The notes under the pieces: model-generated
Told to the model about the DNA's origin: nothing
Seen by the model: the letters and a program-made list of their open reading frames with translations, nothing else
The model's database searches: none
Source of the DNA: a virus
DNA length: 23,839 nucleotides
IMG/VR virus record: IMGVR_UViG_3300023110_002430
Span: 1-23,839 of that record
Strand: one strand, 5' to 3'
Part shown: positions 3,699 through 21,002 of the stretch, one piece after another
Numbering within the stretch: the first letter of the stretch is position 1
Layout: each line of letters opens with the position of its first letter
Position numbers and translations under genes: made by a program

Positions 3699-3880
3699 GT
3701 CTCCATATCTTTGCATCGCCAATGGTAGCATTTTTTATGATACTCATATGGGCAGCATTGTTTGGTGATACTGTATTCTTTCTAATAGAAAATAATATGA
3801 TTGAAGAATGGATTATTTGTATACAGATTTATATTTCAATAATGTTATTAGTAAAATTTAAAAGGACTTTGTATAAATGA
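3695..3880 (+). CDS. Small membrane protein, two predicted helices
   Basis: 61 aa from the ATG at 3695, which shares ATGA with the oxygenase stop; an upstream in-frame start at 3674 lies inside the oxygenase and is less likely. Two hydrophobic stretches (about 8-30 and 38-55) separated by an acidic turn, and a basic tail (KFKRTLYK), predict a double-spanning inner-membrane protein. Family not recognised. Its stop overlaps the start of kdsA. Confidence 0.6.
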   Translation: MSLHIFASPMVAFFMILIWAALFGDTVFFLIENNMIEEWIICIQIYISIMLLVKFKRTLYK

Positions 3881-4662
3881 GAATTATCGCCGGACCATGT
3901 CAACATGAAACCTTTGAACAAAGTTTAGAAATCGCTTTACATTGTAAAGATGTTTGTGATAAGTACGAAGCTGAATATTATTTTAAAGCTAGTTTTGATA
4001 AAGCAAATAGAACAAGCTTGACTGGAAAACGTGGTCTTGGTATGCCAATGACTCTACATCATTTCCGTGATTTAAAAACCGAAATACCTGGTCTTAAAAT
4101 TCTTACTGATGTTCATAGTGTAGAACAAGTTAGACAATTGGGGTATCAAGGTAGTGGAAATCTAGTAGACGTACTACAGATTCCAGCATTTCTCTGTAGG
4201 CAAACAGATTTAATTGTTGAAGCTTGTAGAACAGAGAAAATAGTAAATATAAAAAAAGGTCAATTTCTAGCGCCTTGGGATGTTACAGGAATTTTAAGTA
4301 AAACACAAGGTGCGAAAGAAGTATGGATAACTGAAAGAGGTACAAGTTTTGGATATAATAACCTTGTTGTCGATTTCACTGGTGTTGACTATATGCTTAA
4401 TAATTATGACTGCGATATTGTTCTCGATGTTACTCACTCTGTCCAAAAGCCCGGCGGAATTGGACATTGCTCGGGCGGTGCTCCTATTCACGTGCCTGGG
4501 TTGGCTCGTTGTGGGGCTGCTTTGGGGGTCACTTCCTTCTTTATCGAAGTCCACCCTATGCCTGAATCCGCACCCAGTGATTCGGAAAGTATGCTTAGAT
4601 TAGATGATTTTGAAAGAGTTGTAGATGAAATCCACCGCTATTCTTATTCCAGCGAGATATGA
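3877..4662 (+). CDS. kdsA: 3-deoxy-8-phosphooctulonate synthase, metal-dependent class
   Basis: 261 aa, near the usual 265-285. Condenses phosphoenolpyruvate with D-arabinose 5-phosphate to KDO-8-phosphate, the first committed step to the LPS inner-core sugar KDO. Motifs: IAGPC at 4-8, KASFDKANR (37-45), QIPAFLCRQTDL (101-112), KKGQFLAPWD (126-135), RGTSFGYNNLVVD, DVTHSVQ (184-190), FIEVHP. C8, H187, E224 and D235 match the metal ligands of the Aquifex-type (class II) enzyme; the E. coli metal-independent class has Asn instead of that Cys. It overlaps kdsB by 38 bases and lies in one run with a PEP carboxykinase that could supply PEP. The stretch near 4430-4575 uses markedly more G/C at third positions than the rest of the gene. 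Confidence 0.95.
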   Translation: MRIIAGPCQHETFEQSLEIALHCKDVCDKYEAEYYFKASFDKANRTSLTGKRGLGMPMTLHHFRDLKTEIPGLKILTDVHSVEQVRQLGYQGSGNLVDVLQIPAFLCRQTDLIVEACRTEKIVNIKKGQFLAPWDVTGILSKTQGAKEVWITERGTSFGYNNLVVDFTGVDYMLNNYDCDIVLDVTHSVQKPGGIGHCSGGAPIHVPGLARCGAALGVTSFFIEVHPMPESAPSDSESMLRLDDFERVVDEIHRYSYSSEI

Positions 4663-5302
4663 GTCAAGTAGATACCCTGGTAAGCCATTAGTTAATCTTG
4701 GTGAAATGACTATGATTGAAAGAGTGTATGAGACTTGTGCTGATACAGGTTTAGATACATATGTACTTACTGATGACTATAGAATTGCTTCATTATTTAA
4801 TGACAATAATTGTCGATTAGATACTACAGAATATAATAATGGTACAGAAAGATGTGCCGGAGCGCTCGATAAAATACCAGAATATGATCAGTACATAAAC
4901 GTTCAAGGTGATATGCCTGATGTGAATAAGCATATGATTAATAAAGTAATATGGCATTTAAAGCATTACCCTATCACTACTCTTTTCACCGATATGCCAG
5001 AAAAAATGCGAAATGATCCTAACTCTGTAAAAGTAGTAAGAGGTGGAGATAAAGCCCTTTGGTTCGGAAGAGGAATGGCAGGCTATGGCGATTGGCATTT
5101 AGGAATTTATGGATATAAAAGAAATCCTTTACAATTCTATAGCAAGTATGGTATAATAGAAGAAGAAAGAATAGAACAACTAGAGCAATTGCGCTGGTTA
5201 AAAACAGGTTGGGACATAGGTATACTGCATACTGAATTTAATGGAATAGAAATTAATACACCAGAAGATGAAAAAAGGTGGAATGAAAAATGGCTAATAT
5301 AG
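4625..5302 (+). CDS. kdsB: CMP-KDO synthetase
   Basis: 225 aa, slightly short of the usual 240-255. Transfers CMP from CTP to KDO, giving CMP-KDO. Diagnostic motifs: IPARYESSRYPGKPL (8-22), the VLTDD metal-site strand (47-51), NGTER (72-76) and INVQGDMP (91-98); the C-terminal WDIGILHTEFNGIEINTPED segment matches the family's W...GIdT..D end. It follows kdsA with overlapping frames and overlaps the PEP carboxykinase start by 13 bases, so the three are likely co-translated. No KDO transferase is visible in the window; the product may feed host LPS enzymes or a phage glycosyltransferase elsewhere. Confidence 0.93.
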   Translation: MKSTAILIPARYESSRYPGKPLVNLGEMTMIERVYETCADTGLDTYVLTDDYRIASLFNDNNCRLDTTEYNNGTERCAGALDKIPEYDQYINVQGDMPDVNKHMINKVIWHLKHYPITTLFTDMPEKMRNDPNSVKVVRGGDKALWFGRGMAGYGDWHLGIYGYKRNPLQFYSKYGIIEEERIEQLEQLRWLKTGWDIGILHTEFNGIEINTPEDEKRWNEKWLI

Positions 5303-6480
5303 AAATAATAACTAACCCAACTGGCAGATCTCCTGAGAATAAAATATTTTATGGAAACTTAGCTAGAAAACTAGATTTATCAAGACCAAAATATAATAAG
5401 ATAGGCGAAGAAAAATATTTTTGGGAATTTTATGAAGATTTAAATGAATACAATTATAAACATTACTTGCATTTTTATACTTCTCGTCGCGGTTTTGCTG
5501 TCTTAACTAATGATGATAGACATGCTCAATTTGTAAGAAACATGTTTTCAGTAGTAGATGATCCAACTGAACATTATGCAGAATGGAAAATTATTCACAA
5601 CACTGAAATTAATTGTCCACCTACAATTGCTGTACATTTAGATGAAAAAATTATGTTAATTGGTGGAACTACTTTTCTAGGTGAAATTAAAAAAGGAGTG
5701 TTTGGTATTTTAGGATTTGAATTACCAGACGAAAATGTTTTACCAATGCATTGTAGTGCTTTTACTTTTAAGGATAAAACTAATCTTATGTTTGGATTAA
5801 GTGGAACAGGTAAAACAACATTAAGTAGTGATCCTCAATTTGGTTTAATTTCAGATGATGAAGTATCTTGGAATGAAGAAGGCATCGCAAAAGTTGAAGA
5901 AGGCTGCTATGCTAAATCAGAAGGTTTGTCACCTGAAACACATCCAACTATTTTTAATGCTGTGGAAGCTGCAAAAAAAGCTGAAACATTAGTAATAGAA
6001 AATCCTGGTGCTGCTAATGCTAGATTAAGTTATCCTTTAAAGTATGTAGAAAATGCATATATAAATGATACACAATTCAAACATCCTAATAATATATTTT
6101 TTCTAACAATGGATGCTACAGGTAGTTTTCCTCCAGTAAGTAAAATTTCTGGAGAAACTGTAAGACGGTTCTTTGAAACTGGATATACAAGTCAAATGCC
6201 AGGCACTGAAGCAGGTGTTGAAGAAATTAAAAAAATATTTTCACCATGTTATGGATCACCTTTTATGCCTAGAAATGTAAATGTATATAGCGATATGTTA
6301 ATGGAAAAAATAGAAGAACATGATGTTAATGTTTATTTAATTAATACTGGTATGGATAAAAAAGGTAAAAGATTTCCATTAGAATTTACTCGTAATTGTG
6401 TAACAAATTCTCTAATTAGAGGAGCCGAAGATAGAAGCGAAGAAGTCTTAGAAATCTTAGAAAGGATGATAAATGGGTGA
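5290..6480 (+). CDS. pckA: ATP-type phosphoenolpyruvate carboxykinase, shortened form
   Basis: 396 aa against about 530-540 in bacteria. Converts oxaloacetate and ATP to PEP, CO2 and ADP. Motifs in order: TGRSPENK at 11-18 (bacterial TGRSPKDK, oxaloacetate-binding Arg), GTTFLGEIKKGVFG (126-139, metal-binding Lys), LPMHCSA (151-157, metal-binding His), kinase-1a P-loop GLSGTGKTTLS (169-179), ISDDEVSW (187-194, kinase-2), GCYAKSEGLSPE, ANARLSYP (242-249), PPVSKIS, PGTEAG, GSPFMP and a TRNCV end. The first 50-60 residues of the bacterial enzyme and part of the C-terminal domain are missing, but every catalytic motif I can place is retained. PEP is a KdsA substrate, so its position after kdsAB suggests local supply. 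Confidence 0.92.
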   Translation: MANIEIITNPTGRSPENKIFYGNLARKLDLSRPKYNKIGEEKYFWEFYEDLNEYNYKHYLHFYTSRRGFAVLTNDDRHAQFVRNMFSVVDDPTEHYAEWKIIHNTEINCPPTIAVHLDEKIMLIGGTTFLGEIKKGVFGILGFELPDENVLPMHCSAFTFKDKTNLMFGLSGTGKTTLSSDPQFGLISDDEVSWNEEGIAKVEEGCYAKSEGLSPETHPTIFNAVEAAKKAETLVIENPGAANARLSYPLKYVENAYINDTQFKHPNNIFFLTMDATGSFPPVSKISGETVRRFFETGYTSQMPGTEAGVEEIKKIFSPCYGSPFMPRNVNVYSDMLMEKIEEHDVNVYLINTGMDKKGKRFPLEFTRNCVTNSLIRGAEDRSEEVLEILERMING

Positions 6481-6943: not shown

Positions 6944-7381
6944 ATGAAAGTAGGATTTACATGTAGTACGTTTGACTTGCTTCATGCTGGTCATATCGCA
7001 ATGCTAAGAGAAGCAAAAGAACAATGCGATTGGCTTATTTGTGGATTGCAAGTAGATCCGTCTTGGGATCGTGAAGAAAAAAACTCACCTATTCAAAGTG
7101 TAGTAGAAAGATACAAACAACTTTCTGCAGTAAAATATGTAGATGAAATCATTGTTTATTGTACAGAATCCGATTTACTTGATATAATAAACATGTATCC
7201 AATTGATGTACGTATACTTGGTGATGAATATAAAGATAAAGATTTTACTGGCAAAGATGAATGTAGACGTAGAAATATTTCTTTATATTTTAATAAACGA
7301 GACCACAGATTTTCGTCATCAGATTTGCGTAAAAGAGTATTTGAAAGAGAGCTAGAAAAAAATGATTCTCCAAACGGTTAG
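6944..7381 (+). CDS. Cytidylyltransferase-like protein (TagD/HldE-C group)
   Basis: 145 aa, close to glycerol-3-phosphate cytidylyltransferase (about 130). TCSTFDLLHAGHIAMLREAKEQCD (6-29) is the CTP-binding HxGH region, VERYKQLSAVKYVDEI the second conserved block, DVRILGDEYKDKDFTG the acceptor-site region, and HRFSSSDLRKRV (about 120-131) the RxSSxxL-type C-terminal motif. The enzyme would form a CDP- or ADP-linked sugar or alditol. It overlaps the next gene by 20 bases. Confidence 0.85.
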   Translation: MKVGFTCSTFDLLHAGHIAMLREAKEQCDWLICGLQVDPSWDREEKNSPIQSVVERYKQLSAVKYVDEIIVYCTESDLLDIINMYPIDVRILGDEYKDKDFTGKDECRRRNISLYFNKRDHRFSSSDLRKRVFERELEKNDSPNG

Positions 7382-8060
7382 TGACATACGTCAATTTTTT
7401 ATTGATGAACTAAATGATGAAGCCTTTACTATAGATAAAACAGGTCAAAAAACTATTGAGTTAATTGGTGCTAATTTTTTATGCACTGAACCTGCTATTT
7501 TTGGTACACCTAGTCAAGAATATATTAACAAAGAAATAGCTTGGTATGAATCAGGTTCAACAAACATTTATGATATAAATGGTGTTGATTCAGATGCACC
7601 TCCTCAAGCATGGCAATACGCAGCAAATAAACATGGTGAAATAAATTCTAATTATGGTCACTTACTTTTTTCTGAAAAATATCATTATCAATTCCAACAT
7701 GCCTTTGATGAATTACAAGCTAATCCAGATTCACGTCGTGCACAAATGATTTATAACCGTCCATCAATATGGTGTGAATATAATGAAGGCGGTAAATCTG
7801 ATTTTATTTGCACTAATGCACAAACATTTTATATTCGTGATGGCATACTTTCAATGGTATCTCAAATGCGTTCTAATGATGTTGTTTATGGATATAAAAA
7901 TGATTATGCTTGGGCACAATACTTAATGGATAAATTTGTAAGAGAATGGAATTCATTAGCAGAAATTTATGGTGAACATGGTCCTATTGAAAAAGGTATG
8001 TTAATGTGGCAAGTCATGAATTTACACGTGTATGAACGTCACTTCCATTTAGTTAAATAA
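7362..8060 (+). CDS. dCMP hydroxymethylase-like enzyme (thymidylate synthase fold)
   Basis: 232 aa, close to T4 gp42 (246 aa). Catalytic Cys is C150 in FICTNAQ; general-base Glu is E58. The position that is Asn177 in E. coli thymidylate synthase (dUMP-selective) and Asp179 in T4 gp42 (dCMP-selective) is D181 here, inside GYKNDYAW; the Cys-to-Asp spacing of 31 equals gp42 (C148 to D179). The SRRAQMIYNRPS block binds the nucleotide phosphate. The predicted reaction is dCMP plus methylene-THF to 5-hydroxymethyl-dCMP. A separate ThyX gene at 18171 would cover dTMP synthesis, which supports this one not being a thymidylate synthase. The stretch 7470-7900 is typical AT-rich phage coding sequence. 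Confidence 0.85.
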   Translation: MILQTVSDIRQFFIDELNDEAFTIDKTGQKTIELIGANFLCTEPAIFGTPSQEYINKEIAWYESGSTNIYDINGVDSDAPPQAWQYAANKHGEINSNYGHLLFSEKYHYQFQHAFDELQANPDSRRAQMIYNRPSIWCEYNEGGKSDFICTNAQTFYIRDGILSMVSQMRSNDVVYGYKNDYAWAQYLMDKFVREWNSLAEIYGEHGPIEKGMLMWQVMNLHVYERHFHLVK

Positions 8061-11245: not shown

Positions 11246-12493
11246 ATGACTAGAATTGCTATTATCCTTGGTCGTGGTACTGAAGGCTGCGGTGTAACAC
11301 AATGTGCTATTCAAATGCAAAAAGTAACAGGAGCAGATATCTATTCTGCAATTGATAAAAAATGGGGACGAGCTAAAGGATTAGAAATTGATCAAAAAGA
11401 ATTTGTAATGGGTACGCAGTGGGAATTAACTGCAGATGTTATTAATTCAATGTATGATTTAGCAATCATTTATTCAGTACCTTCTAAGTCTCATCCACAA
11501 GATTGTCAAGATAATTTTGTACCATTTTTACAGAGACTAAAAATACGTAAAGCGTTTATTAATGTAGACCATAAAGCTGCTTCAATAGCACGTAATGCTA
11601 ATCTAAAAGAAGTTTGCGAAAATGTTGATGTCATTATGACTCACAGTCTTGAAAATGATTTCTCAAAATTTATGAAGAAAAATAGAATCCAAACTCCATT
11701 AACTAAAATGGGTTTGGGTTTTGATTATGAGGATCACCGTCAAAAGTATTGGCGACCAATTGAAGAACAACAGCATAATATGGTTCGTTGGATTGGTCGT
11801 ACTGCAATGTGGAAAGGTCCTAGTTTAATGATTGATTTCCATCAAGATGCTTTGATGGAGCAAGGATTTATAACTGTCCTTGAAGGTTTAGAAGCTTCTA
11901 TACAATATCCTCTTGTTTTATATCGTGATAATAAAGAAGATAATCCTGTTGATCGCCGCATGGTTGAAAATTATTTTAGACCAGAAAAGAAATTTAATGA
12001 AGTCAAGTTTACACCTGACTTGTATGGTAAAGAAGAAACCAATAAAGGTGCTTATCTATATCCTCAATACATAAATAATGAGGCAATGATGAGAATGGCA
12101 CGTTCAGCATTTGGTTCAGATCTTTATCATTTAAAAGCAGAAACATATGGTAACAATATTGAAAATTGTCATGCTGAATGTATTGCATCTGGCACTGTAC
12201 CATTATTCCATAAACATTTCTGTGATAACGTAATACACCCTGTACAGGGTGATCCTATTAGTCAATGCAAAAATTCTGGCACTCTTGGTGTTGACTATAC
12301 TAATTTTAAAGAGTGTCAAGAAATGATGACAAAACTCAAAAACGATCCGTCTATGAGAGATGATTGGAGAGAAATGGCATTTGAATTTTGGAAACAACAC
12401 TCCAATGGTGAGGATGTTGTAAATGAAATTATTGATCTTGCTATTAACACAACTGAAAACCAACCACAAGGACTAGAGGAATTTTTCGTATGA
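11246..12493 (+). CDS. T4 alpha-glucosyltransferase (AGT)-like DNA hmC glycosyltransferase
   Basis: 415 aa, against 400 in T4 AGT. T4 AGT transfers glucose from UDP-glucose to 5-hydroxymethylcytosine in DNA. Recognised by an N-terminal RGTEGCGVT block (10-18) next to the Rossmann start, a DH at 108-109 in the position of the T4 catalytic-loop His, RWIGRTAMWKG (181-191) whose R and K would bind donor phosphates, TVLEGLEAS (210-218), and AECIASGTVPLFHK (310-323). These match T4 AGT from memory, in order and spacing. The GT-B fold is expected. The next genes encode UDP-sugar epimerase and dehydrogenase, so the donor may be a modified UDP-sugar. Overlaps the epimerase start as ATGA. Confidence 0.88.
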   Translation: MTRIAIILGRGTEGCGVTQCAIQMQKVTGADIYSAIDKKWGRAKGLEIDQKEFVMGTQWELTADVINSMYDLAIIYSVPSKSHPQDCQDNFVPFLQRLKIRKAFINVDHKAASIARNANLKEVCENVDVIMTHSLENDFSKFMKKNRIQTPLTKMGLGFDYEDHRQKYWRPIEEQQHNMVRWIGRTAMWKGPSLMIDFHQDALMEQGFITVLEGLEASIQYPLVLYRDNKEDNPVDRRMVENYFRPEKKFNEVKFTPDLYGKEETNKGAYLYPQYINNEAMMRMARSAFGSDLYHLKAETYGNNIENCHAECIASGTVPLFHKHFCDNVIHPVQGDPISQCKNSGTLGVDYTNFKECQEMMTKLKNDPSMRDDWREMAFEFWKQHSNGEDVVNEIIDLAINTTENQPQGLEEFFV

Positions 12494-18170: not shown

Positions 18171-18857
18171 ATGCATGCACGTCTCATATCCTATAGCCAA
18201 CCCTCAGGTCGTATCCACGCAGGAGAACTTGGTTACGCGGGGCTTGATAACATCCAAGACCTCGTCGCCTATTGCGCCCGTGTCTCCAATCCACAAAACC
18301 AAGCTAACACCAAAACAACAACAAAGCTACTTAAATATCTCATCAAGCACAAGCACTGGTCACCATTCGAAATGGCAAGCGCCTGCCTCGAAGTCGAAAC
18401 CACAAGAGACATTGCCCGACAATTCCTTCGACACCGCTCCTTTTCCTTTCAAGAGTTTTCTCAGCGGTATGCTGACATCCGCGATCTTAATGACAATTTT
18501 ATTTTAAGAGAAGCACGATTACAAGACACTAAAAATCGTCAAAATAGTATAAGTATTAATGATAAAGAATTACAAATGCAATGGGAAGGATACCAACAGA
18601 GTGTTATCAATCAAGCAAAAGCAGCATACGAATGGGCAATTGAAAACGGGATTGCCAAGGAACAAGCCAGGGCTGTTTTGCCGGAAGGAAACACAGTCTC
18701 TCGTCTTTATGTTAATGGCACCATTCGTTCTTGGATACATTACATTGATTTGCGCACGGCAAATGGGACACAAATGGAACATATCGAATTGGCAAAAGAA
18801 ATAGCAAAAGCAATATCTGCAATTTATCCTAGTATAATGGAGATCTTAGATGGGTAA
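18171..18857 (+). CDS. thyX: Flavin-dependent thymidylate synthase
   Basis: 228 aa, typical for ThyX. Converts dUMP to dTMP with methylene-THF, FAD and NADPH. The signature RHRxxSxxExSxRY is RHRSFSFQEFSQRY at 87-100 (Gln for the usual Asn); the second conserved block PEGNTVSRLYVNGTIRSWIHYIDLR lies near 180-204, ending with the usual Ser-less, Arg-rich dUMP site. GGAG precedes the ATG. About the first 315 bases use C-rich synonymous codons quite unlike the flanking genes; composition then drops abruptly near 18485 and rises again at 18650-18760, so the gene looks compositionally mosaic. Confidence 0.95.
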   Translation: MHARLISYSQPSGRIHAGELGYAGLDNIQDLVAYCARVSNPQNQANTKTTTKLLKYLIKHKHWSPFEMASACLEVETTRDIARQFLRHRSFSFQEFSQRYADIRDLNDNFILREARLQDTKNRQNSISINDKELQMQWEGYQQSVINQAKAAYEWAIENGIAKEQARAVLPEGNTVSRLYVNGTIRSWIHYIDLRTANGTQMEHIELAKEIAKAISAIYPSIMEILDG

Positions 18858-20181: not shown

Positions 20182-20290
20182 TTCAAAATACGTTGCCTAT
20201 GATGATAGTACTGGCAAAGTGATAATTATATCACAGTATAAAAAAATAATTTTTAGCCATTTACAATCCTTGGGATATGTGGTTAAATAA
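20135..20290 (+). CDS. Possible small protein overlapping the tmRNA promoter
   Basis: 51-codon frame from ATG 20135 (AAGG 9 bases upstream) to TAA 20288-20290, overlapping the DUF3310 gene by 47 bases. The product starts Ser/Thr/Tyr/Lys-rich, then has a beta-like YVAYDDSTGKVIIISQ and a helix. Its last codons run through the -35/-10 elements of the tmRNA promoter, so either the gene or the promoter constrains this stretch. Long 3' overlaps also occur at 2310 and 19795, which supports it being real, but without a recognised family it is uncertain. Confidence 0.4.
   Translation: MPSSNSTYTIRKYKNSSKYVAYDDSTGKVIIISQYKKIIFSHLQSLGYVVK
20260..20288 (+). promoter_or_regulatory. Promoter of the two-piece tmRNA gene
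   Basis: -35 TTTACA (20260-20265), 17 bp ending TATGTGG, -10 TTAAAT (20283-20288). Expected start near 20294-20295, exactly where the acceptor piece begins, so the 5' end of the mature acceptor RNA may be the transcription start itself. Confidence 0.75.
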
Positions 20291-20293
20291 ACA

Positions 20294-20347
20294 AGTAGAT
20301 GTTAGAGGGTATTCAGGACCGCGGGGCGGTACCGCGCAGCTCCACCA
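20294..20347 (+). ncRNA. ssrA: tmRNA acceptor piece (permuted gene, first half)
   Basis: This is the 3' part of a standard tmRNA encoded ahead of the 5' part. CAGCTCC at 20337-20343 followed by ACCA is the tmRNA acceptor-stem 3' strand with an encoded CCA end. It pairs fully with GGGGCTG at 20459-20465, including the G3-U wobble that marks alanyl-tRNA synthetase substrates. A T-stem precedes it: CGCGG (20320-20324) pairs with CCGCG (20332-20336) around a 7-base loop that is not the usual TTCRANN. GTAGA at 20295-20299 can pair with TCTAC at 20490-20494 of the other piece, a likely helix P2. The 3' end must be released by processing of the intervening segment. Confidence 0.85.
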
Positions 20348-20458
20348 TAAACACTTGGAGAATGAAATGAGTGATATAGTTACATATTTGTCATTGAGAC
20401 TTGTACAGTACGGATTGGTAATTGTACTATTTGGAAGTTTATTAGAAGTGTTTTTGAT
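20348..20458 (+). other. tmRNA intervening (excised) segment
   Basis: About 111 bases between the CCA end of the acceptor piece and the GGGG start of the coding piece. In alphaproteobacterial two-piece tmRNA such a segment is removed, leaving two RNAs held by base pairing. Here it carries a ribosome site and almost all of a small ORF, which is unusual. Confidence 0.75.
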
Positions 20459-20471
20459 GGGGCTGAAATAG
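20367..20471 (+). CDS. 34-residue hydrophobic ORF inside the tmRNA intervening segment
   Basis: ATG at 20367 with GGAG six bases upstream; stop TAG at 20469-20471, inside the first bases of the tmRNA coding piece. The product has a polar start (MSDIVTYLSLRL) and a hydrophobic stretch from about residue 15 to 32 ending in GLK, consistent with a single-span membrane peptide. Codons look like those of neighbouring phage genes. Translation of the uncut precursor would compete with tmRNA maturation. It could be chance in AT-rich DNA, but the well-placed ribosome site argues for a real product. Confidence 0.45.
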   Translation: MSDIVTYLSLRLVQYGLVIVLFGSLLEVFLMGLK

Positions 20472-20600
20472 GATCGACTGGTATTTGAGTCTACGAAAAT
20501 CAAATGCAAACGATAACTTTGCACCATCTGGTTACGCTCTAGCAGCATAACACAGGGGGTTGGCCACTTACCTAGCAACAGAAAAGTGGTGAATTCGCAC
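20459..20600 (+). ncRNA. ssrA: tmRNA coding piece with proteolysis tag ANDNFAPSGYALAA
   Basis: Starts GGGGCTG (20459-20465), followed by GGATCGACTGG, the tmRNA 5' domain signature. The resume codon GCA is at 20506-20508, and the tag reads ANDNFAPSGYALAA with TAA at 20548-20550. The ANDN start is shared with alphaproteobacterial tags and the ALAA end is the ClpXP degron. After the tag, CCACTT (20564-20569) and AAGTGG (20584-20589) form a 6-bp stem. The 3' boundary is approximate. With the acceptor piece it would rescue stalled ribosomes and tag their products; SmpB is not encoded in this window and is presumably the host's. The next gene starts about 20 bases on. Confidence 0.92.
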
Positions 20601-20621
20601 AGAAATAGTAAAGGAAGAAAA

Positions 20622-21002
20622 ATGAAAATTGCAGCATTAGCCGCAGTATCGGCAATTACGTTAGCTGCTTGCGCAGCAGAAGAAGCAGAAGCAGCTGACA
20701 TCGGTGTACTAGGACAAACGTTGTCTATTGGAGCTACAGTAGATACAAACTATGAAACCGGCGTCGAAGAATGGTCAATGGAATTTGAACCACACGCTGG
20801 TTGGAAAGCATGGGGAACTGATTTTAAAGTATCTAGTACTTTTGATGTTTTAGAGCTAAATAGTGGCGACGACATCTTTGAAGGATTAGATTTTGAAGTT
20901 GGTTATCAGCTTTTTGATGGACTCCGTGCTTATGGGGAAGTTAGCACTGATGCAGATTTAGAGTTTGGTAACACCACTGTAGGGGTTGCATTCTCATTCT
21001 AA
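20622..21002 (+). CDS. Outer-membrane beta-barrel-like exported protein
   Basis: 126 aa from ATG 20622 with AAGGAAG upstream; an earlier in-frame start at 20586 lies in the tmRNA. Residues 1-25 are a signal peptide with LAAC (a possible lipobox, C18) and an alternative AEAAD cleavage site. The mature part alternates polar and hydrophobic residues in short strands with Gly/Asp turns (EEWSMEFEPHAGWKAWG, LDFEVGYQLFDGLRAYGEV) and ends in VGVAFSF, the terminal Phe typical of barrels recognised by BAM. At about 105 mature residues it is small. It may alter the host outer membrane, for example to block superinfection (inference). Followed by a terminator. Confidence 0.75.
   Translation: MKIAALAAVSAITLAACAAEEAEAADIGVLGQTLSIGATVDTNYETGVEEWSMEFEPHAGWKAWGTDFKVSSTFDVLELNSGDDIFEGLDFEVGYQLFDGLRAYGEVSTDADLEFGNTTVGVAFSF

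Follow-up and report, generated by a model that had tools for sequence, protein, structure and literature searches.

The window, the whole 23,839-nt stretch of viral DNA that was analysed, belongs to a marine-type, T4-like phage, and the genes neighbouring the locus described here encode UvsX, a DnaB-type helicase (68% identity to that of phage C48C1, Kyanoviridae), ThyX, and an endolysin; the region is identical in the virus contigs L004, L009, and L033. At 20295-20594 the window carries a permuted tmRNA gene of the alphaproteobacterial type, which is recognized by two Rfam covariance models. In the Rfam cmscan, RF04321 (tmRNA_permuted) matches 20295-20550 with 87.2 bits (E=8.6e-16; gathering cut-off 47), and RF01849 (alpha_tmRNA) matches 20257-20594 with 72.1 bits (E=4e-18; gathering cut-off 50). 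The features of the locus are the following:

20260..20288, plus strand: possible, weak sigma-70-like promoter, TTTACA-17 nt-TTAAAT (read from the sequence)
20295..20347, plus strand: acceptor (3') piece of the tmRNA (Rfam; cofold)
20295-20299, plus strand: P2 strand GTAGA, part of the acceptor piece
20320-20336, plus strand: T arm with loop GGCGGTA, part of the acceptor piece
20337-20343, plus strand: acceptor strand CAGCTCC, followed by ACCA at 20344-20347 (jointly CAGCTCCACCA), acceptor piece
20348..20458, plus strand: intervening segment, 111 nt, absent from the mature two-piece tmRNA
20357..20360, plus strand: Shine-Dalgarno-like GGAG, 6 nt 5' of the ATG
20367..20471, plus strand: predicted family A microprotein gene, 34 aa, MSDIVTYLSLRLVQYGLVIVLFGSLLEVFLMGLK (relatives, selection)
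20459..20594, plus strand: coding (5') piece of the tmRNA (Rfam; 3' end approximate)
20459-20465, plus strand: acceptor strand GGGGCTG, coding piece, where GAAATAGGATCGAC also lies
20490-20494, plus strand: P2 strand TCTAC, coding piece
20506..20550, plus strand: proteolysis tag frame ANDNFAPSGYALAA with stop TAA
20564..20589, plus strand: terminal hairpin CCACTT...AAGTGG, its loop being the CCTAGCAACAGAA that alpha tmRNAs conserve (Rfam; cofold)

A preliminary description of this DNA had placed a two-piece permuted tmRNA of alphaproteobacterial type on a phage, with its acceptor end at 20337-20347 and its 5' end at 20459-20465. These placements are accurate, the gap being exactly 111 nt; both the alpha_tmRNA model that it had named and the model of the permuted class score above their gathering cut-offs, and the T4-like neighbours agree with the phage setting. 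The acceptor stem that it had drawn, G3-U included, likewise forms in full across the break (G1-C, G2-C, G3-U, G4-C, C5-G, U6-A, G7-C), and the tag is confirmed in the frame at 20506-20550, with a ClpXP-type AA ending. In 171 of 171 distinct phage-type tmRNA genes every acceptor pair from 1 to 7 is standard, and pairs 5 and 6, the only acceptor positions left unconstrained by the tmRNA search pattern, covary. ARAGORN makes no call of the window tmRNA, and blastn of this tmRNA against 50,697 phage records gave no match. As a gene, it is a further case of the already published phage-borne permuted tmRNAs, which the Melnitz report describes from marine phages, with 53 two-piece cases counted among phage genomes (PMC9004378); the RF04321 model was built in a 2025 census (PMC11915505).

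Other parts of the preliminary description fare less well. The promoter that it assigned to the gene was not found in a strict promoter scan at the window tmRNA, and only the degenerate TTTACA-17-TTAAAT stands where relatives have a good promoter, TTGACA-17-TATAAA occupying the matching position in L127 and Melnitz. Its use of the tmRNA as a pointer to the host group is weak: Melnitz has an alpha-type tmRNA and yet infects an OM43-clade methylotroph (PMC9004378), so the host cannot be read from the tmRNA type. It also proposed that the phage controls ribosome rescue late in infection, which is unsupported here; for the Melnitz gene, early expression was argued by the authors of that report (PMC9004378).

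Elsewhere, the window encodes an unusual auxiliary metabolic gene, a phage phosphoenolpyruvate carboxykinase of the ATP type (5290-6480, 396 aa; PF01293, E=1e-93). Adjoining genes for a KDO-8-phosphate synthase-like protein (PF00793 family) and a CMP-KDO synthetase-like protein (PF02348) lie at 3877-5302 and, with neighbouring cytidylyltransferase-like genes, constitute a sugar-nucleotide cluster in a phage. There are also two thymidylate synthase genes (7362-8060 and 18171-18857; ThyA-type, PF00303, and PHROG 85, ThyX-like) and a DNA alpha-glucosyltransferase gene (11246-12493; PF11440), the latter suggesting that the phage DNA is glucosylated.

The 111-nt gap, which the preliminary description treated as an empty spacer, instead carries a conserved protein-coding frame. 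The ends of the segment pair with each other (AAACACTT at 20349-20356 with AAGTGTTT at 20446-20453; cofold) and thereby lengthen the acceptor stem. The GGAG and the ATG at 20367 follow directly 3' of AAACACTT, and from this ATG the frame spans the whole segment, to end at a TAG (20469-20471) within the GAAATAGG motif of the tmRNA, 13 nt into the mature 5' piece. We term its product family A, of which ten distinct sequences are available (the window, L011, L307, L127, L368, L370, L375, L379, L380, and L381). The leader TAAACACTTGGAG is conserved in nine of the ten, and a leader pattern that ignores the peptide recovers nine of them, including L307, which was first seen via a peptide pattern. 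When used as a peptide-blind scan (CTCCACCATAAACACTTGGAG...ATG), the leader returned 25 contigs with just two peptide families, namely, A and a C-type family shared with Melnitz.

The family A frame is open in all ten sequences, and both other forward frames are stopped in all ten. Across the five disjoint closest pairs, pS is 0.35 versus a pN of 0.08 (Fisher p=4e-10), indicating purifying selection, and ten residues (M1, T6, Y7, L8, L10, L17, G23, L25, V28, and G32) are invariant. L380 no longer has the downstream TAG, and a new TAG has arisen in the acceptor stem, where it is fully compensated (CTACTCC/GGGGTAG), so that the frame still terminates. With degenerate peptide patterns run on 2.9 million viral contigs, family A was found only in tmRNA spacers. 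The tmRNAs that bear it have differing gene neighbourhoods. We therefore regard the ORF at 20367-20471 as a protein-coding gene under protein-level selection, the translation of which is predicted. A longer start at 20277 (64 aa) is ruled out by stops upstream of the ATG in L307, L368, and L379. A minus-strand ORF at 20261-20701 (146 aa) was also rejected: across the stretch of the family A ORF, stops interrupt two of the minus frames in 10 of 10 relatives and the third in 6 of 10.

What speaks against the coding reading is that the family A ORF is short and has no Pfam or PHROG match; neither resource has a family for the A, B, or C peptides, and tblastn of the A and B peptides against the 50,697 phage records gave chance hits only. 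The locus has no Rfam intron family and no endonuclease domain of the kind expected for an intron-borne homing endonuclease ORF. The family A peptide is predicted to form one helix (residues 2-33, pLDDT 92.7) with a maximal 19-residue hydropathy of 2.14; on this model it is most likely a single helix in the host inner membrane, a membrane role for it being a guess from composition.

Family A is not the sole occupant of this position. Spacers fetched solely by tmRNA patterns hold further conserved peptide families, B, C, and D. Family B (MDEVLLWQFRQKCVEYICINNYSIYHARLIMMGAK type; 15 sequences) has a pN/pS of 0.19, and the corresponding values are 0.25 for C, 0.24 for C2, 0.08 for C3, and 0.35 for D, with 0.50 for C4, where there are few changes. 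The C types end in a (K/R)YLG motif, and the C peptide is basic; the Melnitz-type C family has a pS of 0.17 versus a pN of 0.03 (p=0.0012) and a length change of 24 nt that is in frame. Family D has no obvious Shine-Dalgarno site, and its peptide looks like a single membrane helix (peak hydropathy 2.73); its only match in Pfam/PHROGs is a sub-threshold one to DUF7535. With low certainty, the A and D peptides may be seen as accessory host-interaction peptides. The stop of families A and B lies 13 nt past the expected RNase P cut, whereas C and D terminate ahead of the 5' piece or elsewhere. Family member counts are inflated, as peptide-directed searches contributed to them; the figures for enrichment and selection, on the other hand, come from pattern sets blind to the peptide.

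The Melnitz SsrA gene itself (MZ577095.1:44732-45184) has a TAAACACTTGGAG leader like that of the window, and its spacer contains a family C ORF that starts at 44844 (MFKWLSKTRLVVITRDYFRERNRKADAKIPKYLSG..., MFKWLSKTRLVV...) and is 100% identical in four isolates. This ORF is absent from the Melnitz annotation, the record having SsrA only, and the searched passages of the corresponding report are silent on it (PMC9004378); no report of an ORF in a tmRNA intervening segment was found in the open-licence literature. Family B, in turn, occurs in the spacers of beta-type tmRNAs (L221, L247, L275, L277, L284, and L287) and, elsewhere among phage contigs, as a stand-alone gene that in some cases lies directly 3' of a tRNA. 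In L241, L250, and L252, the ATG of the stand-alone gene comes almost directly after the CCA end of a tRNA-Gly. Spacers after CCA ends may constitute a wider niche for family B-type genes.

The slot as a whole is enriched in reading frames. An ATG-initiated ORF of at least 25 codons is present in 33 of 65 dereplicated phage spacers, versus 7.1 expected from dinucleotide shuffles, and 13 of these 65 spacers have an ORF with a strong Shine-Dalgarno site, versus 0.41 expected. Alphaproteobacterial spacers show no such excess: ORFs were seen in 6 of 23 (4.2 expected) and, in a second set where most spacers are just 15-45 nt, in 2 of 19 (3.0 expected). Four tmRNA spacers (L018, L021, L024, and L030) contain a T-arm-like sequence (e.g., GGTTCAAATCC); a hidden tRNA in them was rejected, as there is no Rfam tRNA match, and tRNA-derived cargo is possible. 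Eight permuted tmRNA matches occur in the single assembly G003 (the genome of L053, Rhodobacteraceae bacterium Water_Bin34), probably reflecting several phage contigs binned with a host.

Comparisons between loci point to exchange of the payload. Between L127 (family A) and L115 (family D), identity reaches 97.3% in the 300 nt upstream and 99.7% in the 350 nt downstream, yet only 61% in the spacers. The tmRNA bodies of L296 (family B) and L379 (family A) are 95% alike, compared with 63% and 67% for their wider flanks (windows that extend beyond the body by ~240 nt on the upstream side and ~210 nt on the downstream side). Family A is hosted by tmRNA bodies down to 64% alike, and the tmRNAs closest to that of the window (L002, L012, and L026; 86-87%) have 90-nt spacers without such an ORF. 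Taken together, these observations indicate that the payload is an optional, replaceable cassette. Further, since about half of the phage spacers, including those of L002, L012, and L026, lack such an ORF, the peptide is dispensable for the tmRNA.

From these sequence patterns we consider it probable that the phage has a permuted tmRNA gene that looks functional and that the segment discarded from it has a second role, as a slot into which small-protein genes can be exchanged. Translation of the peptide would begin immediately after the processing stem, on a precursor that is nascent or still uncut, and would compete with tmRNA maturation. For families A and B, a given transcript would serve either as an mRNA or, once cleaved, as a tmRNA; with the stop on the far side of the expected RNase P site, no single molecule could yield both a complete message and a mature tmRNA. 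The cleaved-out spacer would then be a nonstop mRNA, the product of which could be tagged by the phage's own tmRNA. Given where the C and D frames end, this mRNA/tmRNA switch cannot be what the slot is generally for, and fast RNase P processing may leave little translatable precursor. A more ambitious version, which we put forward only tentatively and are inclined to doubt, is that of a dedicated microprotein exchange site in which translation and maturation are mutually exclusive and the nonstop spacer feeds phage trans-translation as a self-limiting switch.

The same geometry could be read in terms of a regulatory leader, where translation of the spacer blocks RNase P and ties tmRNA maturation to free ribosomes, with the peptide having no job of its own. 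With the start just 3' of the processing stem and, for A and B, the stop within the mature 5' piece, any ribosome that translates the frame has to unwind the acceptor stem. However, the ten invariant residues of family A point to conservation of the peptide itself, beyond a mere open frame; family B is found away from any tmRNA, and the stops of C and D do not fit such an arrangement. We consider this reading unlikely.

Another concern is the compactness of the tmRNA body. Its 5' end and resume codon are separated by just 47 nt (20459-20505), versus ~80 in most, and the gap from P2 to the resume codon is 11 nt, the region being deleted relative to the alpha model; this leaves no room for pseudoknot 1, which is typical of two-piece tmRNAs (PMC3985003). 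The body might thus be degenerate or a decoy that mainly inhibits the host tmRNA, or a mere processing frame carrying a small gene. Against this, the ALAA end of the tag, the acceptor stem, and the G3-U are all intact, and the 47-48 nt spacing recurs in ~11 distinct phage tmRNAs (e.g., L002, L012, L121, L131, L132, L194, L199, and L214). In this compact class the P2 pairing is kept as either GTAGA/TCTAC or GAAGA/TCTTC, i.e., with a U-A to A-U change (cofold). Membership in the tmRNA class stands despite the missing pseudoknot, as pseudoknots differ between lineages and both covariance models match, and we hold a degenerate or decoy body to be more improbable still than the leader. Finally, that the spacer is non-coding and the ORF a chance frame in an ordinary phage permuted tmRNA gains something from the 7.1 short ORFs expected by chance in 65 spacers and from the ORF-less spacers of the nearest bodies, but it is very improbable, being largely refuted by the frame-specific substitution pattern, the stops in the other forward frames in 10 of 10 sequences, the several independent conserved families, the stand-alone copies of family B, and the in-frame 24-nt length change of the Melnitz-type family.

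On the preferred reading of a slot for exchangeable small-protein genes, the segment of permuted tmRNAs that has been treated as waste would hold selected protein genes in many phages, including an overlooked one in a published isolate. It also yields a set of microproteins found by position rather than by homology, all of which would be missed by annotation pipelines that mask RNA genes. The arrangement offers a natural test of translation and RNA processing competing on one transcript, and the Melnitz spacer ORF makes the idea testable in culture.

Among known systems, the closest parallels are the SsrA genes of Melnitz and the pelagiphage Mosig, which are likewise permuted tmRNAs of marine myophages (PMC9004378). 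Melnitz differs from the window in having a family C rather than a family A payload and a glutamine riboswitch downstream of SsrA, which the window lacks. Extra genetic cargo in a removed segment also has precedents: some tmRNA genes contain group I introns that encode homing endonucleases, and the spacer of one permuted tmRNA holds a tRNA-Ala (PMC11915505). In contrast to those cases, the phage slot has neither an intron nor an endonuclease, and its cargo is a small-protein gene of ~26-60 codons in a processing spacer. With the alphaproteobacterial two-piece tmRNAs (RF01849/RF04321), the window gene shares the permuted order, the G3-U, GAAATAGGATCGAC, a tag of the form ANDN...ALAA, and the CCTAGCAACAGAA hairpin; it departs from them in residing on a T4-like phage, in lacking room for pseudoknot 1, and in its long, protein-encoding spacer, most sampled bacterial spacers being 15-45 nt. 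A broader analogy may be drawn to the dual-function bacterial RNAs SgrS/SgrT and RNAIII/delta-haemolysin, in which an RNA function and a small protein come from one transcript. The phage locus similarly combines an RNA role with a predicted small protein; unlike in those RNAs, the peptide is encoded in a part that is discarded at maturation, and the same position is shared by different families.
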